Source: Bacillus sp. SB49 (GTDB lineage: Bacteria; Bacillota; Bacilli; Bacillales; Halobacillaceae). From it: 64,000 bases of DNA. The stretch is from positions 3,261,501 to 3,325,500 of the forward strand of contig NZ_CP048117.1 in assembly GCF_000469135.2 (NCBI RefSeq). The letters run 5' to 3'. Each line of letters begins with the position of its first letter. Within the stretch, counting starts at the first letter, position 1. The notes below the pieces were generated by a model that was not told the DNA's origin, did no database searches, and saw only the letters and a program-made list of their open reading frames with translations. A program made the translations under genes and the position numbers. Of the stretch, positions 13,183 through 28,940 are shown one piece after another.

Positions 13183-14118
13183 CTATTTCGCATGGAGGAA
13201 CGTCATCATCGCATAGGCAGCCAAACGACTTGTCATGTCACGGATATCCTTAGATGGATCGTTTTCTACAAGATCCATCGCTTTAACCGAAGGATCTGCC
13301 GCGGCTGCCGCTATGCTTGAAATAAGCTCCCGCGATGTTATTCCCCCCGGTCCGGCTGCCGGGCAACCTGGTGCGAAGGCCTGGTCGACCACATCCATAT
13401 CGACAGATAAATAGACGGCGTCCGTCACTGTTTTCAACCGGGCTATTTCCTTCTGAAGAATCGTCGTGATGCCCTGCCGTTCCACTTCCTCCATCGTGTA
13501 CACGTGTACACCTTTCTCTTCGCCATATTCCGCATACGCTCCTGCGTTACAGTAGTCCCGGATACCGATCTGTACTAGATACTCACCCTTCAGAATACCT
13601 GCTTCCAGCAAACTGCGAAAAGGTGTCCCGTTTGTTCGTCCGCCGTCCTCCAGGTTACGCAGATCGTGATGGGCGTCCCACTGCAGCACGCCGATCGTGC
13701 CGTATTTTTCCTGAAAGGCAGCGATCGAAGGGTAGCTGATGCCGTGATCCCCACCGAGAATAATGTAGCGATGACACGCCTCCTGTTTCAACATGTCCCG
13801 GATGCTTTCTTTCAGCCTGGCAATATTCTCATCGATATCCGTCGGATGCATGAGGACATCGCCGAAATCGAGAATCGTTCCTGCATAATCCCCTTTTCCG
13901 GAGGCGTAAGTGGTCAAAGACCGGAACGCCTTCCTGATTGCAGCCGGCGCTTCCGATGCCGTCGACGGGGAAATCGAGGACTTCGACAAAGGCAGGCCGA
14001 TGATCCCTGCTTCCGCCCCCTTTCCTTGGCGGTACGGAACGATGCGGTCCTCCATCTTCGTCGTCAGGCTGTCTTTGAAAACTGCTTCCCCTGCCGGTTT
14101 AACGTAACGGAAAGACAT
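13183..14118 (-). CDS. hutG: formimidoylglutamase
   Basis: Last step of histidine degradation: N-formimino-glutamate to glutamate and formamide. Member of the ureohydrolase (arginase) fold, 311 residues. The dinuclear Mn ligands appear in [17 protein letters not shown] and [16 protein letters not shown]. The start chosen is the ATG at 14118 with AGAGGG six bases upstream; an ATG two codons earlier is too close to that site. It overlaps the end of hutI by 20 bp, so translation is coupled. It is the last gene of hutHUIG. Confidence 0.93.
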
Positions 14119-15349
14119 CGGCATCCCTCTTTTCCCAAATGTTCCGGCCGTCCTTCCAAACCGAACGGGCATGGTTCACGCCGTAATGATAGGGAAGGTA
14201 CGTGTAGTTCGGAATGTCCCAAAGTACGAGATCAGCGGCCGCTCCGATTTCAATGCGCCCGGCCGTATCTTCCAATCCGATGGCGCAGGCCGCGTTCGTC
14301 GTCACCGCATTCCAGATTTCCTCCGCCGTCATCTTCAGCTTCAATGCAGCAAGCGACATGATGAGCTGCAGGTTCTCGGTCACACAGCTTCCAGGGTTGA
14401 AGTCGGTCGCAAGGGCAACGGCGGCCCCTTTCCCGAGCATCCTCCGTGCATCGGCATACGCATCTTTCCCTAAGTAGAAGGTCGTGCCCGGAAGAAGCAC
14501 AGCAATCGTCCGGCCGGCGGCAAGCTTTTCCATCCCAATCTCTGTCGCAGCGACGAGATGATCCGCCGATACCGCTTCCAGTTCAACAGCAAGCTCTGTA
14601 CCGCCAAGCGCGTCGATCTCATCGGCGTGAATTTTGACAGGGAAGCCGAGTTTCTTCGATGCTTCCATAAACCGACGCGACTGATCGACCGTGAACACGC
14701 CCGTCTCACAGAAGATATCCGTAAAGCGTGCAAGGCCCTCGTTTTTGATATCAGAAAGCAGATCGATCATGCCCTGTAAAAAGACGTCCGGGTCCATGCT
14801 GTCAGGAATCGCATGTGGACCAAGGAAAGTCGGCACGACGGTCAGCATTCCTTCCTCCCCGAGACGTTTGATGACGCGGAGCTGCTTCCGTTCCGTTTCC
14901 CGATCAAGGCCGTAGCCGCTTTTTGCCTCCACGGCCGTCACCCCGTGAGCCGCCATTCTCGCAAGCGTCGCTTTCCCTTTTTCATAGAGTCCAGTCTCAG
15001 TCGCAAGCCTCGTTTTCTCGACGGTCGCAAGGATACCGCCGCCCCGTTTCAAGATTTCCAAATACGGCATGCCCGCCTGCTTCAACGGGAGTTCCTGTTC
15101 CCGGGAACCTCCGAAAACAAGGTGGGTGTGGGGGTCGATAAGTCCGGGGGAAACCACCTGATGACGAGCATCGACATAGGTACGTGCCGGGGCCGCTTCG
15201 CCCTGATTCCCAATCCACGTGACCTTGCCGTTCTGAATGCCGAGGGCCGCGTTCCGCCGAACGGGCAGCTCAGCCATTGCTTCGCCCTTCAGCGGTCCCT
15301 TTTCCGGCAGGATCAGCTCACCAATCCGGTCGATCACGAGATCCAACAT
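14099..15349 (-). CDS. hutI: imidazolonepropionase
   Basis: Opens the imidazolone ring to N-formimino-glutamate. The protein has 416 residues of the amidohydrolase superfamily, with metal ligands in [10 protein letters not shown] near the N-terminus, [10 protein letters not shown] and ATDFNPG. It starts within the hutU stop (TAATG overlap) and overlaps hutG at its end. The order U-I-G is the usual Bacillus order. Confidence 0.97.
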
Positions 15350-17013
15350 TACGTCTCCTCCTTCTTCATCGGAATATCGATGCCGTGCCGTTTCGCTTCT
15401 GCCACCGCTTTCTCATATCCTGCGTCAGCGTGCCGGATGATGCCCATGCCGGGGTCCGTCGTAAGCACCCGTCGGAGGCGCTCTTCTGCAAGCTGCGATC
15501 CATCAGCGACGGCGACCATTCCGGCGTGCAGGGAATATCCCATGCCGACACCACCACCGTGGTGGAAGGACACCCACGAAGCACCGGCAGCCGTATTAAG
15601 GAGTGCATTGAGTACCGCCCAGTCCCCCACCGCATCGCTGCCGTCGATCATCGCTTCTGTTTCCCTGTTGGGAGAGGCGACCGAGCCGCAGTCCAAATGA
15701 TCCCTGCCGATTACGACCGGTGCGCGCAGTTCCCCTTTCCGCACGAGTTCGTTGATCGCAAGCCCCATCTTCATCCGCTCTCCGTAGCCCAGCCAGCAGA
15801 TTCTCGACGGGAGGCCCTGGAACTGGACCTTCTCTTCTGCCATCCGGATCCAACGCAGCAGTTTTTCATCGTTCGGGAACAATTCTTTCAAAAGGTCATC
15901 CGTCCGTTTGATATCTGCCGGATCCCCGGAGAGCGCCGCCCAGCGGAACGGTCCTTTCCCCTCACAGAACAGCGGCCGGATATAGGCAGGGACGAATCCC
16001 GGGAAGGCAAAAGCATCCTTAACTCCTTGATCATAGGCGACCTGCCGGATATTGTTGCCGTAGTCGAACACGATCGTCCCCTCTTTTTGAAAATGAAGCA
16101 TCGACGTGACGTGATCGGCCATCGACCGGGAGGAAAGCTCCACATAGCGCTCCGGGTCTTCCTTTCTCAGTTCCGCCGCCTTCTCCAGACTCCAACCCTT
16201 CGGTATGTATCCGTTCAACGGGTCATGTGCCGAGGTCTGGTCTGTCAAAATATCGATTTCTTCCTTTCTATTAATCAAAGATGGATAGACATCTGCAGCA
16301 TTTGCGAGGAGCGCAATCGACAGCGGGCGCCCGGCACGCTTTGCTTCCTCCGCCCATTTTAACGCCTCTGTAAGCGACGCCGTTTTCCGGTCACAGTATC
16401 CTGTCGCAATCCGTTTATCGATCCGGGTTTCGTCCACTTCGACCGCGACGACGACTCCGCCGTTCATCGTCACTGCGAGCGGCTGTGCGCCCCCCATGCC
16501 GCCAAGGCCGGCCGTCCACGTAATTGTTCCTTGAAGCGATCCTCCGAAGTGCTGTTCAGCAAGCGACGCGAACGTTTCATATGTCCCTTGCAGGATTCCC
16601 TGCGAGCCGATATAGATCCAGCTCCCGGCCGTCATTTGGCCGTACATCATCAATCCTTTCCGGTCAAGCTCATGAAACGTATCCCAATCCGCCCATTTCG
16701 GGACAAGGACCGAATTAGCAAGCAGCACACGCGGCGCCTGTTCGTGGGTCCGGAAAACTCCGACCGGTTTACCGGACTGAACAAGCATCGTTTCATCCTT
16801 TTCCAGACGCTTCAACGTCGAAACGATGGCATCAAACGCCTCCCAATTCCTGGCCGCCTTGCCGATGCCGCCGTATACGACTAAATCCTCCGGCCGCTCG
16901 GCGACGTCCGGATCAAGATTATTGCAGAGCATCCGCAGCACCGCTTCCTGCTCCCATCCTTTACACTCAAGACCTCTCCCCGTCTTCGCGCGTACCTTCC
17001 TCGCTTCCGCCAC
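15349..17013 (-). CDS. hutU: urocanate hydratase
   Basis: Converts urocanate to 4-imidazolone-5-propionate with tightly bound NAD+. The sequence matches Bacillus HutU over its whole length, including the NAD-site cysteine motif in [20 protein letters not shown] and the closing [11 protein letters not shown] segment. The GTG at 17013 is the likely start: GGGGGAG lies six bases upstream, and the length becomes 554 residues as in the family. A longer frame to 17097 would add an arginine-rich extension that overlaps hutH further. It overlaps hutH by 47 bp. Confidence 0.95.
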
Positions 17014-18529
17014 TGGGATCTCCCCCTTCTCTCCATTTCTTCCAACCAAACACATCCGTCTGCAGCCACGCCGCCGCCCGTTCGATATCCTCCGCAAAAA
17101 CCCGGTCCTCTGTCATGCTCGGCACGACCTTTCGCCCTGCTTCATACAAGGTCGCCGTCTTCGGAGAGGCCTTCTCCACTCCCCGGTACTCCAGCGCCTG
17201 CATGCTGCAGATCAGCTCGATCGCCAGCACCTTGTACGTATTTCTGACAATCTCAGCGGCATGGCGGGCGGCGATCGTTCCCATACTGACATGGTCCTCC
17301 TGATTCGCAGAGGACGGAATCGAATCGACGCTCGCCGGATGGGCAAACGTTTTATTCTCCGAAACGAGAGACGCCGCCACATATTGCAGAATCATGGCAC
17401 CTGACTGAAGCCCGGGGTCTCTGCTTAAAAAAGGGGGAAGATCGTTCAACTGCGGATTGACGAGCCGCTCGACCCGACGTTCGGAAATGCTTGCAAATTC
17501 AGCGATCGCGATTTTCATAAAGTCCATCGCCAGCGCAATCGGCTGACCATGAAAATTCCCCCCGGAGACGACAACCCTTCCGTCTTCCAACAGCAATGGA
17601 TTATCCGTTGCAGCGTTCATCTCGATCGTCAGCTTGTCTTCCACGTAACGTAAAGCCTGCCAGGACGCTCCGTGGACCTGTGGAATACAGCGGATCGAAT
17701 ACGCATCCTGCACCCGCTTCTCTCCTTGGTACGTAACAAGCTGACTACCGTGGATCAAGTGCCTGATCCGCTCCGCCACCTCCTCTTGTTCCGGATACCC
17801 GCGCGCCGCGTGGATGCTCGGATGGAACGCATCACGAACCCCTTCCAACGCCTGCATCGTCATGCTGCTGATCCAGTCACACTGCAGAGCGAGCCGTTCC
17901 GATTCGATGAACTGGATGACCCCGACCGCCGTCATCGCCTGCGTACCGTTGATCAACGCAAGTCCTTCTTTCGCTTTCAATTGGATCGGCTCCATGCCAA
18001 GTCGCGCATACACATCTTCTGCCGGAAGTACTTCCCCCCGATAGTTGACCCAACCTTCTCCCATCAAAACAAGTGCAAGATGAGCAAGCGGCGCCAAATC
18101 ACCCGACGCCCCGAGCGATCCCTGTGATGGAATCACCGGATGGATGCCCTTATTGATCAAATCGCGCAGACGGCATACGACTTCTTCCCGTACCCCGGAC
18201 ACGCCTTTCAAGAGCGCATTGAGACGCAGCACGATCATTGCCCTGCTCACGATTTCCGGAAAAGGATCCCCGACACCGCAGGCATGCGATCGGATCAAAT
18301 GCTGCTGCAGTTGATCGACATCCGCCGCTGCTACCCGGACATCACTCAGTTTCCCGAACCCTGTATTAATGCCATATACGATGCTGCCCTTCTTCACAAT
18401 CTCCTCGACCACCCGACGGCTCGCCCGGACCTTCTCCAGACTAATCTCATTCAAAGAAACCGGCGCGTTTTGGTAACATACCGCTCGTATTTGACTGATA
18501 GTCAACGTCCTTCCGTTCAATTCGACCAT
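16967..18529 (-). CDS. hutH: histidine ammonia-lyase
   Basis: First step: histidine to urocanate and ammonia. The protein has 520 residues. The self-forming MIO cofactor triad Ala-Ser-Gly is in [14 protein letters not shown] near residue 143. The ATG at 18529 has GGAGGGGG upstream; a longer frame starts inside the leader hairpin and is rejected. The C-terminus ([14 protein letters not shown]) is unusually acidic and overlaps hutU. No hutP is present upstream and no hutM transporter is seen. The leader carries a terminator-like hairpin 37 bases before the start codon. Confidence 0.97.
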
Positions 18530-18559
18530 CGATCCCCCTCCTGCCTGTGCCTGCGGCGA

Positions 18560-18600
18560 AAAAAGAGGTGACAATGGCAGAACTCACACCACTGTCACCT
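18560..18600 (-). terminator. attenuator-like hairpin in the hut leader
   Basis: On the minus strand, 12-bp arms with one mismatch (AGGTGACAgTGG / CCAtTGTCACCT; plus-strand 18566-18577 and 18589-18600) and an 11-base loop are followed by CTTTTTT. The T run ends about 30 bases before the hutH start. It has the form of an intrinsic terminator placed before the first hut gene. This suggests transcription attenuation, as in B. subtilis hut where HutP prevents termination. Confidence 0.65.
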
Positions 18601-18889: not shown

Positions 18890-18914
18890 AACCGGAAACC
18901 AAAGGCTTCCGGTT
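18890..18914 (-). terminator. terminator of the sugar operon (after yesL-like gene)
   Basis: AACCGGAA/TTCCGGTT stem (18890-18897 with 18907-18914), then T-rich sequence on the minus strand. It overlaps the stop codon of the upstream gene. Confidence 0.75.
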
Positions 18915-19608
18915 AAGCTGCTTCCGTTTTCTCCTGCCATTTCAGCACAAGACGATAAAAGGCAGAAAAAGCGAGGAAAGAAAGAATCGATCCCGTGAAA
19001 ATTGGAAGAATCAACGGGAAGATATAAAGACTGACCATCAGAATGAAACCGGCCGTCACTGCAACGGCGAGGAACAACACCGGACTCGAGAACGTCAGGA
19101 AGAACGCCTGTTTCAGCACACCACCCACCTTAAGGTCGTAATGCACCATGGCCGAAAATACGTTGATGGTATAGACAAAAAGGATGATGCTCGAGACGAG
19201 GAAGGCGTTCATCATCAACGGATTCGCTGCAGAGAAATAATACACATCTGCTGCGACAACCACCCAGAGAAAAGTCAATAGTGCTCCAACCTTCACGCTT
19301 CCAGCGTAGTTTTCTTTGTAATAGTACCAATAGCTGTATTCCCTGCCGTGTTTCTCCTCCTTCCGCACCCATTCCCGTGCTTTCGCGAACAGAGCGGTCG
19401 TCGCCGGGAAGAAGACGATCGGAAGAAGTAAGACGAGCGGCGGCAGCAGATACCAGAGTTGTCCCCTCTCCCCAATGCCGAGGATGCTTAACAAAATCAA
19501 CACGACCGGCAAATTGAACAATGTCCACAGCAGATTCGTCAGCGCAAACTTGGAAATCCACTCACTGACCGCATATAAGCCACCCCTGATTCCCTTCATC
19601 CGATCCAT
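18913..19608 (-). CDS. YesL-type membrane protein (DUF624)
   Basis: About 231 residues with five or six membrane helices, opening with MKGIRGGLYAVSEWISKFALTNLLW, typical of the DUF624/YesL family. These proteins are encoded in many Firmicute carbohydrate ABC operons; their biochemical role is unknown. The second of two close ATGs is chosen, because AGGGGA is six bases before it. It is the last gene of the nine-gene sugar operon, 41 bp after the isomerase-like gene. Confidence 0.85.
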   Translation of the reverse strand: MDRMKGIRGGLYAVSEWISKFALTNLLWTLFNLPVVLILLSILGIGERGQLWYLLPPLVLLLPIVFFPATTALFAKAREWVRKEEKHGREYSYWYYYKENYAGSVKVGALLTFLWVVVAADVYYFSAANPLMMNAFLVSSIILFVYTINVFSAMVHYDLKVGGVLKQAFFLTFSSPVLFLAVAVTAGFILMVSLYIFPLILPIFTGSILSFLAFSAFYRLVLKWQEKTEAA

Positions 19609-19649
19609 ATCCATTCCCCTTTCTTTCCCTTACAGACTGTACGTGCTGT

Positions 19650-20618
19650 TTACGCCCACCACATATCGGCCGGCTGTTCTTCTATCAAGACGGACTTCAA
19701 ATTCTTCACGGCCTGGCGGAAACCTTCATCAATCGACATGATCGGATCCTCATGCTCGATGCTGACGGCATGATCGTAGCCGAACGTCCTTAGTGCACTG
19801 ATAATATCCGACCATTCCTTGACACTGTGGCCGTAGCCGACGGAACGGAAACTCCAAGCCCGCGTCTGGACGGCTGCGTAATTCTGCATGTCGGTCAACC
19901 CGTACATGTTTACATTTTCCTGGTCGATATACGTATCCTTCGCATGGAAGTGATGGATGGCATTCTCTTTTCCAAGTATCTTAATGGCCGCGACCGGATC
20001 GATGCCCTGCCACCATAAGTGACTCGGATCGAGATTGGCTCCGATCGCCTCCCCTGCCGCTTCGCGAAGCTTCAGCATCGTGTAAGGCGTATGAACGAGG
20101 AATCCGGCATGAAGCTCGAGTCCGATTTTGACCCCGTTCTCCTCGGCAAGCTTCGCTTGTTCCTTCCAGTAAGGAATCAGTTTTTCCGTCCACTGCCACT
20201 CCAGAATATCGGAGTATTCCGGCGGCCAAGGTGTGACAGGCCAGTTCGGCGCCGTATCCTGTTCACTTCCACCAGGGGTTCCGGAGAACGTGTTGACGAC
20301 AGGGACTCCCATTAATCCGGCGAGCTTCACCGTCTTGACGAACGTCTCATGGCATTGATCAGCGAAAGCTTTATCCGGAGAAATCGGGTTGCCGTGACAG
20401 CTGAAGGCACTGATGGTCAAACCACGATCCTCCACCTTCGCCAAGTATTCCTTCCGCTTCTCTTCACTTTCAAGAAGCGCATCAACGTCACAGTGAGCGT
20501 TACCCGGATAGCCGCCTGTTCCGATTTCCACTGCTTTCAATCCGGATTCTTTTGCATGGTCAAGCATTTCTTCAAACGATTTATCAGAGAATAATACCGT
20601 AAATACGCCTAGTTTCAT
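19650..20618 (-). CDS. sugar phosphate isomerase/epimerase-like TIM-barrel protein
   Basis: A 322-residue xylose-isomerase-like (AP endonuclease family 2) barrel. Probable metal ligands are in GLELHAG (Glu), LDPSHLWWQG (Asp/His), HHFHAKD (His) and SIEHED (Glu), near the ends of the beta strands. Relatives act as isomerases, epimerases or, in 3-keto-glycoside pathways, as eliminases/lyases. The neighbours here (two Gfo/Idh/MocA dehydrogenases, ThuA protein, sugar ABC transporter) point to a step in breaking down a keto-glycoside or inositol-like sugar. The exact reaction cannot be read from sequence. It lies 14 bp after the preceding dehydrogenase. Confidence 0.85.
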   Translation of the reverse strand: MKLGVFTVLFSDKSFEEMLDHAKESGLKAVEIGTGGYPGNAHCDVDALLESEEKRKEYLAKVEDRGLTISAFSCHGNPISPDKAFADQCHETFVKTVKLAGLMGVPVVNTFSGTPGGSEQDTAPNWPVTPWPPEYSDILEWQWTEKLIPYWKEQAKLAEENGVKIGLELHAGFLVHTPYTMLKLREAAGEAIGANLDPSHLWWQGIDPVAAIKILGKENAIHHFHAKDTYIDQENVNMYGLTDMQNYAAVQTRAWSFRSVGYGHSVKEWSDIISALRTFGYDHAVSIEHEDPIMSIDEGFRQAVKNLKSVLIEEQPADMWWA

Positions 20619-20632
20619 CGCTCATTCCTCCA

Positions 20633-21676
20633 TTATCGATTTATTTTCACACTGGAACCGGTCCGACTGCTTTCGTAGATCGCTTCCATCAATTTCGTCA
20701 CTTTAAGCGCCTGTTCAGGCTGAACGACAAGCTCTGTACGCCCAAGACAGCTGTCCACGAAGTTCCTTGCCTGGGCCACTCCCGGTTCCGGATACCCTTC
20801 GTTTACTTTCATCGTACTATCGACCAGAGCACCATACTTCGCCTGATAAAGCTCCAGCGGATAAACGCTGAGTCCTCCATCGACTCCTGAAATAGAAAGG
20901 GATGTATGGTCCTCTTTGATATTCGCAGCCCAGGAGCATTCGAACTGCATGGAAGAACCATCCGCAAACGTGATATAACTGGTCACATGATCATCGACGT
21001 TGAACGTTTCATGATCAAATGTTCCCCAGTCATTCACCTGCCCCGGCGTCTTACTCAGCCGGTCATAGGCACGTCCCATCACTTCTACAGGCTCGGGATC
21101 ATCCAGCAGCCAGAGAGCAAGGTCGAGAAGATGACAGCCGAAATCAATCAAACTGCCTCCCCCCTGCAGCTCTTTATTCGTAAAGACGCCCCATCCCGGG
21201 ACTTTTCTCCGTCGCATCGCCTGGACACGGGTCACAAGCGGATCACCAATCTCTTTCTCAAGGATGGCGTTTTTCGCAAGTTTCGCCTCCGGAGTGAAAC
21301 GATAATGATACGCAATCGACAAAAGGCGGTCATTTTTCTCTGCCGCTTCGATCATTCTTTCGCATTCCTCTGTCGTAATCGCCATCGGCTTCTCGCACAA
21401 GACGTGCACGCCCGCTTCCAATGCCGCAACCGCAATCTCGGCGTGAAATTTATTCGGTGTACAGATGATAACGGCGTCGATATCCTGAAACATCGCAGGA
21501 TAATCTTCATATACGTGCGGAATGCCGTGTGTTTCTGCTACTTCCTTCGCTCTTTGTTCATTCACATCCTGGACAGCATGCAGGATGACATCCTCCTGTA
21601 ATTCAAGGAAAGAGGGAATATGCCTCCCTTGGGCAATTCCCCCTACTCCAATCAAACCTATACGGAGACGGGTCAT
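20633..21676 (-). CDS. Gfo/Idh/MocA-family NAD(P)-dependent sugar oxidoreductase (copy 1)
   Basis: A 347-residue dehydrogenase. The N-terminal Rossmann domain has GLIGVGGIAQGRHIP, and the family's catalytic lysine is in CEKPMAI. The C-terminal sheet domain carries GGGSLIDFGCHLLDLA, where the histidine/aspartate pair of the active site is expected. It oxidises a sugar or sugar derivative; the substrate is unknown. Start and the previous gene's stop overlap by four bases (ATGA), so it is translationally coupled to copy 2. ThuB of rhizobia, which makes 3-keto-trehalose, belongs to the same superfamily. Confidence 0.9.
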   Translation of the reverse strand: MTRLRIGLIGVGGIAQGRHIPSFLELQEDVILHAVQDVNEQRAKEVAETHGIPHVYEDYPAMFQDIDAVIICTPNKFHAEIAVAALEAGVHVLCEKPMAITTEECERMIEAAEKNDRLLSIAYHYRFTPEAKLAKNAILEKEIGDPLVTRVQAMRRRKVPGWGVFTNKELQGGGSLIDFGCHLLDLALWLLDDPEPVEVMGRAYDRLSKTPGQVNDWGTFDHETFNVDDHVTSYITFADGSSMQFECSWAANIKEDHTSLSISGVDGGLSVYPLELYQAKYGALVDSTMKVNEGYPEPGVAQARNFVDSCLGRTELVVQPEQALKVTKLMEAIYESSRTGSSVKINR

Positions 21677-22713
21677 TTCGTGACTTTCTCCAAGCTTGCA
21701 ATTTGACCTGTTTCACTGGAACGAAGCGCTCCCAGAATGACTTCCAGTGACTTCAGTCCTTCTTCTCCGGTGATCAACGGATCTTTCTTATTAATAATGC
21801 TGTCAAGGAAATGATCGATCACGTGAGAATTGCTTTGTCCACCCTCATCGTTGGACTGGATTTTTCCAAGCTCGTAACGGACGGTGTCCCCGTTGTTGTA
21901 GTTGGCAATCAAAGAATACGTCGGATCATCTTCTAAGCGAAGCGTTCCTTCTGATCCGTAGATGACCGTCGAATTGTCTTCCTTCGGGTTGTATGCCCAG
22001 CTCGCAGCCATTGTACCGACAATACCTGATTCAGAACGGAGGATGCAGACGGCATTATCATCCACCGTGCTGTTTTCTTTCGCACTGCTTTCGATGAAGC
22101 CGGCGACGTTCGTGAACTCTTCCCCCAGCACGTAGCGCATCAGGTCTGCCTTATGTACACCAAGGTCTCCCATCGCTCCGATGAACGCCTCTTCTTTCTT
22201 GAAGAACCAGCTGTCTTTCCCTTCTGCACTCCAGCCTTCCGGTCCGCCATGACCGAATGCCGTACGGAAGCTGTATACTTTTCCGATGGAACCTGCTGCA
22301 AGCAGTTCTTTCGCCTTTTCATGAGAAGGTACGAAGCGCTGGTTGTGGCCGATCATCAATTTCTTTCCTGCTTTTTCAGCAGCTGCGATCATCGCTTCAC
22401 CTTCTTCTTTCGACGTCGCCATCGGTTTCTCGCATAGGACGTGGCAGCCTGCATTCAGTGCTGCGATGGAAACAGGTGCGTGGAGGTAGTTCGGCAGACA
22501 GACGCTGACAGCATCTACGGATTCTTTCTCCAACAATTCTTCATAGCTCGTATACGCTTTCGCTCCGTATTCAGCTGCAATTTCCTCGGCACGGGCTTCG
22601 ACAATATCGCAGACAGCCGTGATTTCTGCATTTGGATTATTGTTGTATTCCGGGAGGTGACGGTGCTGAGCGATGCTTCCACAGCCGATGACGGCAATTT
22701 TCAATGTAGACAT
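21673..22713 (-). CDS. Gfo/Idh/MocA-family NAD(P)-dependent sugar oxidoreductase (copy 2)
   Basis: A 346-residue protein with the NAD loop VIGCGSIAQHRHLP, catalytic CEKPMATS and the C-terminal GAMGDLGVHKADLMRYVLG segment. It is clearly diverged from copy 1: the two need not act on the same substrate and may carry out oxidation and later reduction of one pathway. AAAGGAG lies upstream of the ATG. It is located between the ThuA-domain gene (21 bp) and copy 1 (4-base overlap). Confidence 0.9.
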   Translation of the reverse strand: MSTLKIAVIGCGSIAQHRHLPEYNNNPNAEITAVCDIVEARAEEIAAEYGAKAYTSYEELLEKESVDAVSVCLPNYLHAPVSIAALNAGCHVLCEKPMATSKEEGEAMIAAAEKAGKKLMIGHNQRFVPSHEKAKELLAAGSIGKVYSFRTAFGHGGPEGWSAEGKDSWFFKKEEAFIGAMGDLGVHKADLMRYVLGEEFTNVAGFIESSAKENSTVDDNAVCILRSESGIVGTMAASWAYNPKEDNSTVIYGSEGTLRLEDDPTYSLIANYNNGDTVRYELGKIQSNDEGGQSNSHVIDHFLDSIINKKDPLITGEEGLKSLEVILGALRSSETGQIASLEKVTK

Positions 22714-22734
22714 GATATCAGGCTCCTTTATTGT

Positions 22735-23454
22735 TTATTTCGGCGCAATCTTTTCGAGTGGCTGTGCGTTTCCATATACAGGTGTCGGCGTTTCCGTTTG
22801 ACGGGCCCATTTCACACCATTCTTGATCACGTGCTGGATCTCTTTATTATGATAAGTCGGGTACGTTTCATGTCCCGGGCGGAAGTAGAAGACTTTCCCT
22901 TTGCCGCGTCGGAAGGTCGCTCCACTTCGGAATACCTCTCCGCCTTCAAACCAGCTGACGAAAATCAGTTCATCCGGGGTCGGAATGTCGAAGTGTTCCC
23001 CGTACATCTCTTCTCTCTCAAGCTCGATATACTCTCCGATTCCTTCTGTAATCGGGTGGGATGGATCGACGACCCAGATCCGTTCCTTATCATCGGCTTC
23101 GCGCCACTTCAGATCACAGGACGTTCCCATCAGTTTCTTGAACGGCTTGGAGAAGTGACCGGAATGAAGCACGACCAGACCCATACCGTCCAATACCCGC
23201 TGCTTCACTTTCTCTGCGATATGATCCTCTACTTCATCGTGCGCCTTGTGTCCCCACCAGACGAGGACATCGGTTCCATCCAGCACGTCGTCGGTCAACC
23301 CGTGTTCTTCCTCATCCAGAGTTGCTGTACGAACGGTTACGTTTTCCTCTTCCAAAAATTCGGCAATCGCACCGTGGATTCCTTCCGGATAAATATCGCG
23401 GACGATCTCGCTTTCTTTTTCATGACGGTATTCGTTCCATACTAGGACGTTCAT
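22735..23454 (-). CDS. ThuA-like domain protein
   Basis: A 239-residue protein of the ThuA family (class I glutamine-amidotransferase-like fold), shown by [31 protein letters not shown] and [14 protein letters not shown]. ThuA with the dehydrogenase ThuB is needed for 3-keto conversion of trehalose and related disaccharides in rhizobia; the precise activity of ThuA is unsettled. The second ATG (23454) is chosen from the spacing to AAAGGGGA. Linkage to a LacI regulator, ABC permeases and two dehydrogenases is the same company that thu genes keep. Confidence 0.87.
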
Positions 23455-23479
23455 GTTCATTCCCCTTTTCTTTTTATAG

Positions 23480-24517
23480 TTAAGACGGACGGATCGGCGA
23501 TTTCCTGCTGCAGGATTCGCGTTCGATAATGATCGTCGGAATAATGACGCTCTTCTTGATTCTGTCCGGATGTTTCAACCATTCAATAAGGTTGCGTGCC
23601 GATTCATGGCCGAGCTGGAACGACTGGGTATCAACCGTCGTCAGCGGAGGGCTGGAGAGCCGGGCGATCATCGTGTTGTTAAATCCGATCACACTCATCT
23701 GCTCCGGCAGCTTCCAGCCTTTGGTCGTCAATTCACGCATGACCATCATGGCATTGTAGTCGTCCGTGATCACGAGTCCCGTCGGCGGGTCGGAGAGAGC
23801 CGTCAATGCAGCAGCCACTTCTTCCGCTCCCGACTGATCCGCCTGGATGTTCTTCCAGATGTGCGCCGTTTCATCCAGTCCGTTCGCCTGAAGCGCCTGC
23901 TTAAATCCTTGCAGACGATCCCGGGCTACTTCGTACTGTGCGTCGCCGCCGATGAAACCGAGCTTCTCATGGCCGAGCTTGATCAGATGGTTCGTCGCAT
24001 CTTTACTCGCCTGTACGTTGTCATTATCGACATAGAGGGTGTCTCCCGGAGAATCGACCGGTTTGCCGATCATGACGAAAGGAAATTCGCATTCCCTTAA
24101 ATACGGGACAACCTTGTCATCCTCGCGGGAATAAAGGACGATACAGCCGTCGACACGCTTTCCCTGGACCATCTTGACGACTTCTTTATAAATAGCTTCT
24201 TCTGTGTTTCCCGTCGTTAAGTAAATACTGTAGTCACTATCATGACAGGCATCGCTGATCCCTCTCAACAATTCCGAAAAAAACGGGTTGTCGAAGGAGT
24301 GGATCGAGGATACCTTCGTTACGATGCCGATTGTCTGGGTGGACTGACTGACAAGGACCCGGCCGTTGTAATTCAAATGATAGCCGAGCTCCTCCATTAC
24401 TTTCCTTACCTTCCGCTTCGTCTTCTCACTGATACGCGGACTGTCTGAAATAACGCGGGAAACAGTAGAGGGAGCCACGTTCGCCTTCTTCGCTACATCT
24501 TTTATCGTTACGGACAT
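23480..24517 (-). CDS. LacI-family transcriptional regulator
   Basis: A 345-residue repressor with N-terminal helix-turn-helix ([21 protein letters not shown]), hinge helix ([14 protein letters not shown]) and periplasmic-binding-like sensor domain. It lies inside the operon it is likely to control, between the second permease and the ThuA gene. Twin LacI-type palindromes upstream of the binding-protein gene (27791-27806, 27870-27885) are the likely targets. The second ATG is preferred because AGGGGAG is three bases from the first and nine from the second. The ligand is presumably the imported sugar or a product of it. Confidence 0.9.
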
Positions 24518-24538
24518 ACCCATCTACTCCCCTGCTGA

Positions 24539-25363
24539 TTATTTGACGGCACCTTCTGAAACACCGGCAATGATTTGCTTCTGAGCGAAGAAGTAGCCGA
24601 TGATGACCGGCAGGATGGCAATTGTCAATCCTGCAAGCGCCAGGTGCCACTGCTTCGTATATTGTCCGAAGAAATAGAACATCTTCAACGGGATCGTCGC
24701 ATTCGACTCATTCAAGACAAGAGATGGAAGGAGGTAATCGTTCCAAATCCAGATGACGTTCAAGATCGCGACTGTTACGGAAATCGGTTTAAGCAGCGGG
24801 AAGATGATGTGCCAGAATAGCTGGAAGCGGTTCGCTCCATCGATGATGGCTGCTTCATCCATGGATGTAGATACACCCGTCATTGCTCCGTGATACAAGA
24901 AGATCGACAGGCTGCATCCGAATCCGAGATACATAAAGATCAAACCGCCGGCGTTCAGCATGTCTGCCTGTCCGAAAATCGAAACAAGCGGAATCATGAC
25001 AGACTGGAACGGAATCAGCATTGCCGCTACAAACACGAAGAAGATGATGCCGCTGAGCTTGCTTTTATTCCGGGCCAGCGCGTAGCCGGCCATGGAAGAG
25101 AACAGGATGATGATCGCAATGCTTAAGCCCGTGATCATCAACGAGTTGAACAACGACTTTAGAAATTCCAGATCGATGAACGCTTCCACAAAGTTTGAGA
25201 AAACGAATTCGTCAGGAAGACCGAGGACACCTTCAAAGATGCCCCGTTTTGTTTTAAACGCATTGACGATCATCAAGTAAAACGGTGCAATCCAAATCAA
25301 GCCGAGCAGAAGGCCGAGGACTTCAATGGAAATTAAATTTCTTCTTTCTTTATTTCGCTTCAT
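24539..25363 (-). CDS. sugar ABC transporter permease, MalG type
   Basis: A 274-residue inner permease with six predicted helices and the EAA loop DEAAIIDGANRFQLFWHIIFPLLKP that touches the ATPase. The start overlaps the stop of the partner permease (TAATG). No ATPase gene is encoded in the operon, so energy probably comes from a shared MsmX-like ATPase elsewhere in the genome, as in B. subtilis. Confidence 0.93.
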   Translation of the reverse strand: MKRNKERRNLISIEVLGLLLGLIWIAPFYLMIVNAFKTKRGIFEGVLGLPDEFVFSNFVEAFIDLEFLKSLFNSLMITGLSIAIIILFSSMAGYALARNKSKLSGIIFFVFVAAMLIPFQSVMIPLVSIFGQADMLNAGGLIFMYLGFGCSLSIFLYHGAMTGVSTSMDEAAIIDGANRFQLFWHIIFPLLKPISVTVAILNVIWIWNDYLLPSLVLNESNATIPLKMFYFFGQYTKQWHLALAGLTIAILPVIIGYFFAQKQIIAGVSEGAVK

Positions 25364-26223
25364 TACATCTCCACCTCCCGCTTCTTGTTGTAATACACTT
25401 GGCTCAACGCAATAACCGCGACAATCAGGAAGAAGATGACGGCTTTCGCCTGTGCGTAGGCCATATCGTTATCCTGGAATGCTGTGTTGACGATTTCCAT
25501 TGCTACCATCTGTGTCGAGTTGAACGGCCCGCCGTTCGTCAACGACAAGTTCTGGTCATAAATTTTGAATGCCATCGACAATGTCAGGAACATACTGACC
25601 GTGAAAGCTGGTGCGACAAGTGGGAACGTGATGTTCTTGAAGCGCTGGAAGCTGCTCGCACCGTCGATCTTCGCTGCTTCGATCAGTTCTTTCGGAATGT
25701 TTTCTAAGTATGCGATATAGATGATCATGATATAGCCGGCCATCTGCCAGGCTGTTAAAATGACAAGCCCCCAGAAACCGGTGCCCTTCGTGGAAAGCCA
25801 GCCGTTCAGGCCTTCGATACCGGTCAGGTTGGCGACATCTCCGAACACGCTGATGAATATGAACTGCCAGATGAACCCGAGAATCAATCCGCCGATCAAG
25901 TTAGGCATGAAGAAAACCGTACGAAGCAGGTTTCCGGACCGGATTTTTCTTGTGACAAGAAGCGCAAGCCCGAGACCCATCACGTTTAATAAAATGACGG
26001 TGACGACTGCGAATTGTACTGTAAACCAGATGGAATCTACGAATTCCTGCTCCTGGAATAGATTGATATAGTTTTCAAGACCGAGGAACTGGGTCGCTGA
26101 TATTCCGTCCCAATCGGTGAACGAGTAGAAAAGACCATAGATGAAAGGAATGACGACGACGATTCCCAACCCGAGGATGACGGGGGTGAGGAACAGCCAG
26201 AAGGACAAACTGCGGTTCTGCAT
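25363..26223 (-). CDS. sugar ABC transporter permease, MalF type
   Basis: A 286-residue permease from the ATG at 26223 (GGAGGAG upstream). It has six helices and the EAA loop ELIEAAKIDGASSFQRFKNITFPLVAP. It pairs with the downstream MalG-type permease. A palindromic cre/LacI-like element (26247-26262) and a G+C-rich hairpin separate it from the solute-binding protein gene, so the permeases may be expressed at a lower level than the binding protein. Confidence 0.93.
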   Translation of the reverse strand: MQNRSLSFWLFLTPVILGLGIVVVIPFIYGLFYSFTDWDGISATQFLGLENYINLFQEQEFVDSIWFTVQFAVVTVILLNVMGLGLALLVTRKIRSGNLLRTVFFMPNLIGGLILGFIWQFIFISVFGDVANLTGIEGLNGWLSTKGTGFWGLVILTAWQMAGYIMIIYIAYLENIPKELIEAAKIDGASSFQRFKNITFPLVAPAFTVSMFLTLSMAFKIYDQNLSLTNGGPFNSTQMVAMEIVNTAFQDNDMAYAQAKAVIFFLIVAVIALSQVYYNKKREVEM

Positions 26224-26246
26224 GTAGAACTCCTCCAATGCTTATT

Positions 26247-26262
26247 ATGATAACGATTTCAT
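26247..26262 (-). promoter_or_regulatory. cre- or LacI-type palindrome before the permease genes
   Basis: ATGATAACGATTTCAT is a near-perfect palindrome around CG. It matches cre WTGNAANCGNWNNCWW with one mismatch. It lies 24 bp upstream of the permease start codon, inside the operon. Confidence 0.5.
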
Positions 26263-26342
26263 ATCTGCCTTTAAATAAAACATCCCGTCTATTAACATAC
26301 TTACCTTATAAATATCCTAATAGAGGGGATATTTTATAATGC

Positions 26343-26367
26343 CGGCAGGAGCGAGCTGCTCCTGCCG
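26343..26367 (-). terminator. intra-operon hairpin after the solute-binding protein gene
   Basis: Perfect 10-bp G+C-rich stem CGGCAGGAGC / GCTCCTGCCG with a 5-base loop, 20 bases after the stop. There is no long T run on the minus strand, so it fits a partial terminator or an mRNA-stabilising end that raises binding-protein expression. Confidence 0.6.
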
Positions 26368-26386
26368 ACCCTATAAGGTACGACCG

Positions 26387-27694
26387 TTATTGGCGGGCGT
26401 CTTCCCAAGCTTTCGTAGCTTTCTCTTCTACCTCTTCCCACTCGATGTCGCCTGCGATATATTCCTGCATCGCTACACCAAGTGCGTTTTCTGTCCAGCT
26501 CGTAGGAGCACCAAGGAAGACCCATCCAAGCGTGTTGCCTTCATTAGCATAGTTGTAGATTTCCTGAGAAATCGGATCAGCGATATTCTGATCTTCATAC
26601 CCTTCATATGCCGGGATGAACTTGAACTCTTCTGTTACGAACTTCTTACCTGCATCAGATGTGTACATCCAATCAAGGAAGTCTTTACTGGCCTGCACGA
26701 CTTCGTCATCGGATTCTTTGTTTACAACCCAGTAGTTAGGAACGCCGACAGGGATGCTTCCTTCATATCCTTCTACAGGAATCGGAAGAAGACCGACATT
26801 GTTTTCCGCGAATTCCGGATCCATGGACTCGATGGTGTTGTACACCCAGTTACCTTGCTGGATCATCGCTACTTTACCCAGTGAGAAGTTCTCTTCTACC
26901 TGTTGAGAATAGTCGAGGCTCAATGTAGGCTGAATGGAATACTCGTTCTGAATGTCTGTGAAACGCTTCATCTGATCGCCCATTTGGAATTCGACCGTAT
27001 CAGCTTCATATGCTTCCATGACATCATGATTGAATTCGTCTGCAAGATAAGCGTTCGCCAGGTGGTTACCCATTACCCACTTCTCTTTCGCAGGGAAAGC
27101 GAATGGTGCGTCGATACCAAGGTCGCCTTTCTTGGAGTCAAGCGTCTTCACTGCTTCTTCCAAGTCATCCAGTGTCTTGATATCTTCTGCTTTGATCCCG
27201 GCATCTTCAAACACCTGTTTGTTGTAAAGCAGGCCGTAACCTTCCTGGTTGAAAGGAAGACCGAGGACCTGATCGTTTCTGGATACGCCGGAAAGCGTTC
27301 CATCAAGCGCCGCTTTGGCAGCTTCCGTATCAGATAGATCTGCTAAGTATTTTTCATATTGATCGACATCTGTCGGACCACCGACGTTGAAGATGTCCGG
27401 TTCTTCACCAGAGGAGAAGGACGTTTTCAGAGAGGCCCCATAATCGTTTCCTCCACCGACTGTTTTGACATTGATATCGACGTCCGGATTCTCTTCCTCA
27501 TACATGGATACCAATTCTTCAAACTGATCTTTAAATTCCACTTTGAATTGGAAAACATCTACTGTAACAGCATCTCCGGAGTTTCCACTTGATTCTGAAT
27601 CTCCATCACCGGAACCGAAGGAACAACCAGCCAGGGCAACCGTCGAAGCGAGTACTGCTGTAGCAATCCCCGCGGACCATTTGTTTCTTTTCAT
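26387..27694 (-). CDS. sugar ABC transporter solute-binding lipoprotein
   Basis: A 435-residue family-1 extracellular binding protein. The signal peptide ends in lipobox LAGC with Cys near residue 23, followed by an acidic Ser/Gly linker. The mature part has the usual pattern (VSMYEEENPDVDINVKTVGGG at the front, GNWVYNTIE in the middle). It captures an oligosaccharide or glycoside for the two permeases; the exact ligand is unknown. The ATG at 27694 follows AAGGAG by nine bases. It is the first gene of the nine-gene operon. Confidence 0.93.
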   Translation of the reverse strand: MKRNKWSAGIATAVLASTVALAGCSFGSGDGDSESSGNSGDAVTVDVFQFKVEFKDQFEELVSMYEEENPDVDINVKTVGGGNDYGASLKTSFSSGEEPDIFNVGGPTDVDQYEKYLADLSDTEAAKAALDGTLSGVSRNDQVLGLPFNQEGYGLLYNKQVFEDAGIKAEDIKTLDDLEEAVKTLDSKKGDLGIDAPFAFPAKEKWVMGNHLANAYLADEFNHDVMEAYEADTVEFQMGDQMKRFTDIQNEYSIQPTLSLDYSQQVEENFSLGKVAMIQQGNWVYNTIESMDPEFAENNVGLLPIPVEGYEGSIPVGVPNYWVVNKESDDEVVQASKDFLDWMYTSDAGKKFVTEEFKFIPAYEGYEDQNIADPISQEIYNYANEGNTLGWVFLGAPTSWTENALGVAMQEYIAGDIEWEEVEEKATKAWEDARQ

Positions 27695-27725
27695 CTCATC
27701 CACTCCTTATTCATCCTATTAACCT

Positions 27726-27741
27726 TTGAATCCGCTTACAT
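27726..27741 (-). promoter_or_regulatory. putative cre site in the sugar operon leader
   Basis: TTGAATCCGCTTACAT on the plus strand matches the cre consensus with one mismatch, 32 bp upstream of the binding-protein start. It suggests carbon catabolite repression of the operon. Confidence 0.5.
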
Positions 27742-27790
27742 ATCACATGTAAAAAAAGAGCTTTCGTGGTATGCCTTCGTGCAACAAACC

Positions 27791-27806
27791 GTGCATACGT
27801 TTGCAC
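27791..27806 (-). promoter_or_regulatory. LacI-type operator O1 of the sugar operon
   Basis: GTGCATACGTTTGCAC, an imperfect palindrome with a central CG. On the minus strand a possible promoter (TTTACA, 17 bp, TATGCA) has its -10 inside this element. It shares ATACGTTTGCA with the element at 27870-27885. Confidence 0.6.
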
Positions 27807-27869
27807 AAATGGCATGTAAAAAACTCATCAGCTTGTACAAAATGAGTAAAAAATATTGCTATGGCGCAT

Positions 27870-27885
27870 GTGAATACGTTTGCAT
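27870..27885 (-). promoter_or_regulatory. LacI-type operator O2 of the sugar operon
   Basis: GTGAATACGTTTGCAT, second copy of the ATACGTTTGCA core, 79 bp from O1 centre to centre. The spacing would allow looping by a tetrameric or paired repressor. The rest of the 350-bp interval between 27695 and 28053 is AT-rich without a gene. Confidence 0.55.
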
Positions 27886-28053
27886 AAATTCATTGATTAA
27901 TGAAGTTGAGTAAATCATAACATGCAAAAAAAACAAATACAACAACATTTTTCAAATAATTCCCCAAATGGGTAACGCTTTCACGTATACCTTATCCTTC
28001 CCTCGCATGAATGTCCCTTATCCTTCATAAATTGATGGAAAGAGGTGAGTTTC

Positions 28054-28488
28054 ATGACAAAGAAAAAAGGGCAGCTCAATTGGGATGCGTTTTCTGAAAA
28101 TGTGGAGAAAGTACTTGGAGAGGATTTTTGGAACGACATGCATCATGTCATTCCGAAGAAAGGTCCTTCCTATGACTTTTTTCAAACAAAAGATCAAGGG
28201 GTGCTCGTCATCGAACTTCCCGGTATGACCAAGAACGATCATGTGCAGATGACACAGGAAGGCACCCGCCTGATTGTAAAAGGAACCGTCACGCCTCCCT
28301 ATCCTGTTCCGGTCGAGGAATTGATTCATGACGAGCGGATGAAAGGCAGTTTCAAGCGCATCATTCCGATTCCGTTCCCCTTTTCCATTGACGATATTAC
28401 AACGGCCTACAGCGACGGCCTGATGGTGATAACCTTGCGCAAACATGCGGACAGTAACGAAGTACGCATCCATTTCGACCCTCAATAG
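28054..28488 (+). CDS. Hsp20/alpha-crystallin-like protein (spore-coat type)
   Basis: A 144-residue protein. Residues about 45-140 form a diverged alpha-crystallin domain: YDFFQTKDQGVLVIELPGM opens it and a late strand DGLMVITLRK closes it, followed by a strand-rich end. Bacillus relatives with this look are spore proteins such as CotM, CotP and GerT. The start is set by AGAGGTGA six bases before the ATG at 28054; an in-frame GTG three codons earlier is inside that site. It converges on, and overlaps by seven bases, another Hsp20-like gene. Confidence 0.7.
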   Translation: MTKKKGQLNWDAFSENVEKVLGEDFWNDMHHVIPKKGPSYDFFQTKDQGVLVIELPGMTKNDHVQMTQEGTRLIVKGTVTPPYPVPVEELIHDERMKGSFKRIIPIPFPFSIDDITTAYSDGLMVITLRKHADSNEVRIHFDPQ

Positions 28489-28940
28489 CGCAGGAATATT
28501 TCCTTTTCATCGGAGTGACGTTTTGGCAGCCTCACTTCGACAATTCCCTCGTGGTACTGGGCATGGATATTACGCCGACTCGTCTGAGCGGGAAGTGCAA
28601 TTGCAAGGCGTTCCTGACCGACTCCATCTACAAACAATTTGCCGTTCCCTACAGTCAGCCGAAGTTCCTCGACAGCTACTTCCAGAGGAACGGTGATCGT
28701 GACGACGACTTCATTGACTAATTCGATCACTTTGTATGGGACCTTCTCTTTTTCTTTGGCGGCTGGCTGCTGCATAAATGGATTGGGGGATAATGCTTCT
28801 TCCATCTGCTTTTGAACGAATTCATTCATTTTGAACATATCCATCATTTGATTCGGAAATCCGTTCCCAAAAGGGGAATTCGATGGATTTCCTTCTCCTT
28901 GTTTTCCAAAAGACGGGAACCAATTCATAAAGTCTTTCAT
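28482..28940 (-). CDS. Hsp20-like protein (GerT/CotM-like)
   Basis: A 152-residue protein. The first 60 residues are Asn/Phe/Met-rich and likely disordered (FGNGFPNQMMDMFKM). The rest is a diverged alpha-crystallin domain (YKVIELVNEVVVTITVPL, then EGIVEVRLPKR). The low-complexity N-terminus with small-heat-shock domain resembles spore-coat GerT. It overlaps the plus-strand Hsp20-like gene tail to tail. Spore function is inferred from similarity and from the spore-type cluster next to it. Confidence 0.65.
   Translation of the reverse strand: MKDFMNWFPSFGKQGEGNPSNSPFGNGFPNQMMDMFKMNEFVQKQMEEALSPNPFMQQPAAKEKEKVPYKVIELVNEVVVTITVPLEVAVEELRLTVGNGKLFVDGVGQERLAIALPAQTSRRNIHAQYHEGIVEVRLPKRHSDEKEIFLRY

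Follow-up and report, generated by a model that had tools for sequence, protein, structure and literature searches.

A nine-gene operon of Bacillus sp. SB49 with a ThuA-GfoA-TIM core and a predicted 3-keto route for glucosides

Nine genes in one operon

The subject of this work is an operon in a 64,000-nucleotide stretch of DNA from Bacillus sp. SB49 (contig NZ_CP048117.1, positions 3,261,501 to 3,325,500; hereafter the window, in whose numbering positions are given), a candidate for the use of glycosides by way of 3-keto sugars. Its genes, which we label SBP, the two permeases, LacI, ThuA, GfoA, GfoB, TIM and YesL, all lie on the minus strand at 18913..27703, and from SBP to YesL they are separated by 148, -1, 15, 19, 21, -4, 14 and 35 nucleotides, the single long gap, after the SBP gene, containing a strong hairpin. 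An initial annotation of this DNA had described nine co-directional, tightly spaced genes, and the spacing of -4 to 35 nucleotides at every junction but one bears this out; the families it named also agree, for all nine, with profile matches (SBP_bac_1, BPD_transp_1 twice, LacI, ThuA, two different Gfo/Idh/MocA proteins, an AP_endonuc_2 TIM barrel and DUF624/YesL). As it had further stated, a family search among the nine proteins gave zero matches to glycoside hydrolases, sugar kinases or ABC ATPases, and the end it assigned to the operon, 27885, falls a single base outside the first LacI-type site (27884-27871). The same nine-gene order is found as one operon run at five other loci (L031, L032, L055, L059 and L073; identity 49-93%), and the arrangement is therefore not due to chance: the nine-gene operon is real. 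Its features are as follows.

27871..27884, minus: LacI-type operator 1, TGCAAACGTATTCA, conserved 5' of the SBP gene among relatives retaining a related LacI
27792..27805, minus: LacI-type operator 2, TGCAAACGTATGCA, 79 nucleotides downstream of operator 1
26387..27703, minus: SBP, sugar-binding lipoprotein; listed start GTG, with an ATG at 27694 equally likely
26325..26400, minus: intercistronic hairpin stretch, 3' of the SBP gene (-33.9 kcal/mol, z -5.0)
25363..26238, minus: ABC permease in the MalF-like position (PF00528)
24539..25363, minus: ABC permease in the MalG-like position (PF00528)
23480..24523, minus: LacI-family regulator (family match; operator pair upstream of the operon)
22735..23460, minus: ThuA, core protein, candidate 3-keto-glucoside-cleaving enzyme by inference (PF06283, 141 bits)
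21673..22713, minus: GfoA, core Gfo/Idh/MocA dehydrogenase, candidate 3-keto-glucose reductase or glucoside 3-dehydrogenase
20633..21676, minus: GfoB, predicted DgpA-like glycoside 3-oxidoreductase (closest solved structures are DgpA proteins)
19650..20618, minus: TIM, predicted AtHYD/LgdB2-like 2-hydroxy-3-keto-glucal hydratase, possibly an eliminase too (PF01261)
18913..19614, minus: YesL/DUF624 membrane protein (PF04854)
18890..18914, minus: intrinsic terminator at the operon end, 3' of the YesL gene (z -5.0)

Enzymes of the operon and their relatives

TIM is a PF01261 barrel with a fold close to that of AtHYD. Its residues E168, D197, H225 and E288 are invariant and H170 nearly so, and they align with the metal ligands and catalytic histidine of AtHYD, whose roles they would presumably share; a Glu and a His also match the positions of the coordinating Glu and catalytic His of C-glycoside deglycosylases (CGEs), at a spacing that we infer. 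TIM shares 56% identity with the TIM protein at the LgdB2 position of locus L050, which stands in for B. smithii LgdB2, itself outside the comparison. In a tree of 49 TIM proteins, 13 of the 14 from ThuA operons group apart from the lgd-like proteins, and one (L048) is placed beside the lgd group. Homology and fold thus argue strongly for TIM being a metal-dependent hydratase of the AtHYD/LgdB2 type. The initial annotation had called it isomerase/lyase-like and compared it with eliminases; a TIM barrel of the non-hydrolytic 3-keto type it does appear to be, but one that resembles a hydratase rather than an eliminase. Homologues of TIM (61-65%) also occur outside ThuA operons (L045, L046, L047 and L147-L152), the eight of them in the tree forming one clade and some of the genes being divergent from LacI and ABC/Gfo genes.

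The closest solved relatives of GfoB are DgpA1 (9m3d, 243 bits) and DgpA (7xr9, 217 bits), the next PDB entry or family scoring 110. GfoB shares with DgpA a long stretch around D178..H182, and its K96, D178 and H182 align with DgpA and are found without exception in the 64-65 rows that reach them, of 66 (two rows being fragments). Its nearest structures and the catalytic K and D..H thus mark GfoB as a predicted DgpA-type glycoside 3-oxidoreductase. PMC11239390 describes D3dgpA as a ping-pong enzyme: it oxidises the C3 position of C- and O-glucosides, after which 3-oxo-glucose restores its oxidised form. The matches of GfoA are less specific, with DgpA at 143 bits and glucose-fructose oxidoreductase at 127; its K96, D183 and H187 recur in 98% or more of 93 relatives, and its gene is conserved next to those of ThuA and TIM across neighbourhoods. 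Both Gfo proteins score far below the BT_2158/BT_2159 family cut-offs and that of the levoglucosan dehydrogenase model NF052479 (GfoA 136 and GfoB 134 bits against 650), and no LgdA was found in this genome (G000) at E<=1e-100.

ThuA is 58.6% identical to S. meliloti ThuA and 57.5% to R. etli ThuAc, matches PDB entry 1t0b with 387 bits, and belongs to a family conserved from rhizobia to haloarchaea with what we take to be a glutamine-amidotransferase-like fold. Among 87 proteins, 89 of its 241 positions are kept in at least 98%, including H13, E14, H29, H71, H74, H99, H102, H135, E155, H197 and E198; this conservation, together with the retention of ThuA in TIM operons given below, suggests catalysis.

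The genome has a second related operon (G000:C1:2984736-2991917) of LacI, sTIM, SBP, two permeases, a Gfo and a GfoA paralogue, GfoA' (62% to GfoA). Its sTIM (G000:C1:2990024-2990794) is the single AtOGE-like homologue, 62% identical to a protein (L038) whose top PDB match is AtOGE (8bvk, 132 bits). No hydratase or ThuA is found among the genes of this second operon, and no AtOGE-type eliminase among the nine of the window operon.

To establish how these genes travel together we used 110 loci (30 + 80) selected around TIM matches, in which operon runs were ended at strand changes or gaps of at least 350 nucleotides, so that run-based counts are minima. A run with a TIM at least 55% identical was present in 106, and of these 79 held ThuA (at least 60%), 89 GfoA (55%), 63 GfoB (50%) and 21 sTIM (35%), with 14 lacking all four; transporters vary widely among the loci. 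A panel of 199 genomes of the order (ThuA at E<=1e-60, TIM at >=367 bits, sTIM at >=167.5 bits) contains ThuA in 108, every one with TIM, which also occurs in 20 of the 91 genomes without ThuA. TIM is likewise present in 75 of the 76 genomes with sTIM (the exception being G212), and 53 of the 128 TIM genomes have no sTIM; of the 149 TIM copies, 91 lie no more than 5 kb from a ThuA gene and 37 no more than 10 kb from an sTIM gene. Across a phylum panel of 398 genomes ThuA is found in 18, TIM in 30 and both in 13. This pattern fits, without proving it, a scheme in which TIM carries out a shared downstream step and ThuA and sTIM are alternatives upstream of it; sTIM likely depends on TIM, and the reverse is not likely. 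The joining of both elements in one operon, which the initial annotation had singled out, is thus seen here but is not peculiar to it, a ThuA with a hydratase-type lyase being common in this order, and ThuA-GfoA-TIM is a widespread module, new in this analysis.

The route had also been called little described for Firmicutes, for which there are two precedents. That of B. smithii for levoglucosan, LgdA-LgdB1-LgdB2-LgdC, already uses oxidation, elimination, hydration and reduction (PMC7676230), and the gut strain PUE deglycosylates by a 3-keto route, as described in PMC10628242. The lgd system (PMC7676230) shares with the window operon, in a member of the Bacillaceae, the four-reaction route predicted here, Gfo and TIM-barrel enzymes, and LacI and ABC transporter genes nearby; the window operon differs in lacking LgdA, in having ThuA and a DgpA-like Gfo instead, and in a maltose-type transporter without its own ATPase. 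Among 398 genomes of the class, 9 score above the cut-off of NF052479, and three of these (G116, G038 and G155) are in the order panel, each with a TIM homologue (53-56% to ours) within 6 kb; in G038 the locus L050 (LacI, small TIM, SBP, LgdA, ABC ATPase, permease, Gfo, TIM) resembles the B. smithii one (PMC7676230). The AtOGE/AtHYD glucoside operon of A. tumefaciens likewise joins oxidase and reductase genes, and TIM has the fold and active-site pattern of its AtHYD, but its oxidase is the flavoenzyme GlycDH, the dedicated eliminase AtOGE is inside it, and ThuA goes unmentioned in the available portion of its description (PMC10628242). With the puerarin system DgpABC of PUE the operon shares a DgpA-family 3-oxidoreductase; the small beta subunit of DgpB type that would stand beside TIM in a C-glycoside deglycosylase (DgpBC/CGE) is absent, all nine genes belonging to other families, the DgpC sequence being outside the comparison.

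The initial annotation had drawn a parallel with rhizobial thuA/thuB and their similar transporter, the thuEFGKAB operon, which acts on trehalose, maltitol and sucrose isomers. The order SBP, permease, permease, ThuA, Gfo is indeed shared and ThuA, at 57-59% identity, is a true ThuA, but the rest of the comparison finds no support: ThuB is 23-34% identical to GfoA or GfoB (23-27% to GfoA, which is not its orthologue), the permeases are 24-28% identical to ThuF/ThuG, R. etli ThuE has no match at E 1e-3, and thu has its own ATPase, ThuK, where the window operon has no ATPase gene. R. etli has neither a TIM nor a YesL gene beside thuB. Systems with DUF1080 hydrolases (BT2157; PMC9007349) have similar 3-keto disaccharide intermediates, but DUF1080 gives zero matches across this genome. 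What is new here is the assignment of TIM as the hydratase, its core with ThuA and GfoA, and a testable role for ThuA.

Regulation, transport and likely substrate

We scanned 14 upstream regions, those of the window and of 13 loci with an SBP at least 50% identical, for the two operators. A LacI at least 50% identical is encoded in 12 (the window included), and in 10 of these two sites lie 78-98 nucleotides apart; the other two have three weaker sites (L139) and one weak site only (L098). The two loci without such a LacI (L074, L092) have zero sites in their upstream regions, and base shuffles yield about 0.014 sites of such quality per region. The sites thus track a related LacI and are rare by chance, so the operon is probably autoregulated, its LacI acting through both predicted operators. 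A LacI-type site also lies near the start of an alpha-amylase-family gene (L071 near 9275; G000:C1:2815274), and may belong to this LacI or to another protein of the family. Further upstream, 27970-27983 reads TGAAAGCGTTACCC, which resembles a CcpA site.

The top PDB match of the SBP is 9xor, named "maltose-binding protein", with 250 bits against 70 for the runner-up. PF17912, the MalK OB domain, has a single match in the genome, at 1054455, whose protein is a candidate shared transport ATPase. Beside the core lie GH13 genes in L090, L112 and L125, all above the cut-off of NF008183 (the alpha,alpha-phosphotrehalase subfamily model) but below that of TIGR02403, and a GH65 gene in L119. A Priestia megaterium plasmid of hypersaline origin carries ThuA, Gfo and TIM among genes for a maltose transporter, alpha-glycosidase, LacI, UgpC, ROK glucokinase and pullulanase, and on the plasmid pHOS100 of the haloarchaeon Halorientalis (L203, 3102-9060) Gfo-TIM-Gfo adjoins trehalose-6-phosphate synthase and phosphatase genes. 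The SBP match and these neighbours therefore indicate alpha-glucosides, and the substrate is most likely a glucose-containing di- or oligosaccharide of this kind.

Downstream of the operon, 14099-18574 (minus) carries consecutive genes for an amidohydrolase, a urocanase and an aromatic amino acid lyase, presumably a histidine-utilisation (hut) cluster. On the other side, at 28045-28940, an Hsp20-family gene (plus) converges with a small gene (minus; 152 amino acids, no Pfam match at E 1e-5).

A candidate 3-keto route and its alternatives

We consider it probable, though by no means certain, that the operon imports such a sugar and cleaves it non-hydrolytically by oxidation, elimination, hydration and reduction. 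The SBP and two permeases would take it up, energised by a shared ATPase of the MalK/MsmX type whose gene lies outside the operon, and GfoB would oxidise the glucosyl unit at C3. Beta-elimination of the glycosidic bond would yield 2-hydroxy-3-keto-glucal, with ThuA as the best candidate and some elimination by TIM possible; TIM would hydrate this product to 3-keto-glucose, which GfoA, or GfoB itself, would reduce to glucose. Since one DgpA is known to pass its electrons to 3-keto-glucose, the oxidation and the final reduction could form a redox-neutral loop. LacI would repress the operon until inducer is present. The non-hydrolytic route that the initial annotation had suggested is in this form supported by a DgpA-like GfoB, an AtHYD/LgdB2-like TIM and a true ThuA, with hydration replacing the eliminase role it gave to TIM.

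For the bond-breaking step, AtOGE splits 3'-keto-cellobiose and not, after 20 h, 3'-keto-maltose (PMC10628242). Given this, the lack of DUF1080 and the conservation of ThuA, we tentatively propose, as a reading somewhat less likely than not, ThuA as a new 3-keto-glucoside lyase for alpha-glucosidic bonds refractory to AtOGE-type eliminases, feeding 2-hydroxy-3-keto-glucal to TIM. In the literature searched on ThuA and 3-ketotrehalose, at the level of titles, abstract openings and term counts and with most subscription journals outside it, no paper names ThuA as a cleaving enzyme.

Several points weigh against the proposed route or this role of ThuA. We know of no proven reaction for the ThuA family, and thuAB are jointly credited with forming 3-keto-disaccharides. 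Five of the 18 ThuA genomes in the Bacillota panel have no TIM at E<=1e-60 (two of the five are just 72% and 86% complete), so that ThuA can in some cases do without TIM; the panels overlap in a few genomes, and genome relatedness inflates the co-occurrence figures, for which reason their Fisher values are not to be taken at face value. The DgpA substrates described in the available sources are beta-glucosides, which makes GfoB a poorer fit for an alpha substrate. An alpha-glucoside-only role is also weakened by a GH38 alpha-mannosidase gene in L033 and by beta-glucan-type genes near the ThuA/TIM core in L039 (2901-8420) and L041 (38-5152), namely GH3 and SOGP (a GH94-like 1,2-beta-oligoglucan phosphorylase), gene sets that suggest a 3-keto route for sophoro-oligosaccharides. 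Finally, B. smithii LgdB2 is itself capable of elimination (PMC7676230), so a separate cleaving enzyme may be unneeded.

This last point leads to the main rival for the role of ThuA, in which TIM alone eliminates and hydrates, as the reportedly bifunctional LgdB2 does (PMC7676230, PMC10066097), and ThuA plays an auxiliary part, perhaps as a keto-sugar mutarotase or in partnership with GfoA. The CGE-like Glu and His of TIM are consistent with it, as is a genome (G026) that holds the full nine-gene operon (L059) with zero AtOGE-like matches, and 3-oxo-O-glycosides can also break non-enzymatically (PMC11239390). We nevertheless regard it as possible but doubtful, because elimination by LgdB2 is of low affinity and the separate LgdB1 is retained (PMC7676230), AtHYD is inactive on 3-keto-phlorizin, and the conservation of ThuA in sequence and in TIM operons speaks for catalysis.

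One could also speculate that the sTIM of the second operon is the missing eliminase, and that the two operons constitute one split beta-glucoside pathway. The second operon, with its GfoA' and AtOGE-related sTIM, would then be complemented by the hydratase it lacks, in line with the 21 runs that join sTIM (>=35%) to TIM and the near-constant presence of TIM in sTIM genomes. Yet the regulators and transporters of the two operons differ, many TIM genomes have no sTIM, and G026 indicates that the window operon can apparently dispense with it, which makes this reading unlikely.

Interconversion of sugars through 3-keto intermediates without cleavage, as glucosides and gulosides undergo in the ycj cluster of E. 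coli with its 3-keto-glucoside 4-epimerase YcjR, would fit a comparable gene set (binding protein, permeases, LacI, Gfo, TIM barrel) and the GH65 gene of L119, but strikes us as very improbable. Least credible is catabolism of inositol or a free sugar, with TIM as an IolE-like inosose dehydratase and the Gfo proteins as inositol dehydrogenases: the matches to TIGR04379 (TIM, 33 bits against a cut-off of 290) and TIGR04380 (GfoB 124 and GfoA 168 against 355) all lie far below the IolE and IolG equivalog levels, and ThuA, the DgpA-like GfoB and the maltose-type SBP fit it poorly, the remaining genes being for transport, regulation and YesL.

This analysis makes of one odd operon a widespread module, ThuA-GfoA-TIM, in which one protein has a likely chemical step, and it narrows the function of ThuA to one testable candidate reaction. 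If true, ThuA would supply the gene for the alpha-3-ketoglucosidase activity of Agrobacterium (1970, as cited in PMC9007349), and its companions would be accounted for, a hydratase in Bacillales and Gfo dehydrogenases in rhizobia and Deinococcus. Bacteria annotated as having no glycosidase for a sugar may then use that sugar by a 3-keto route.

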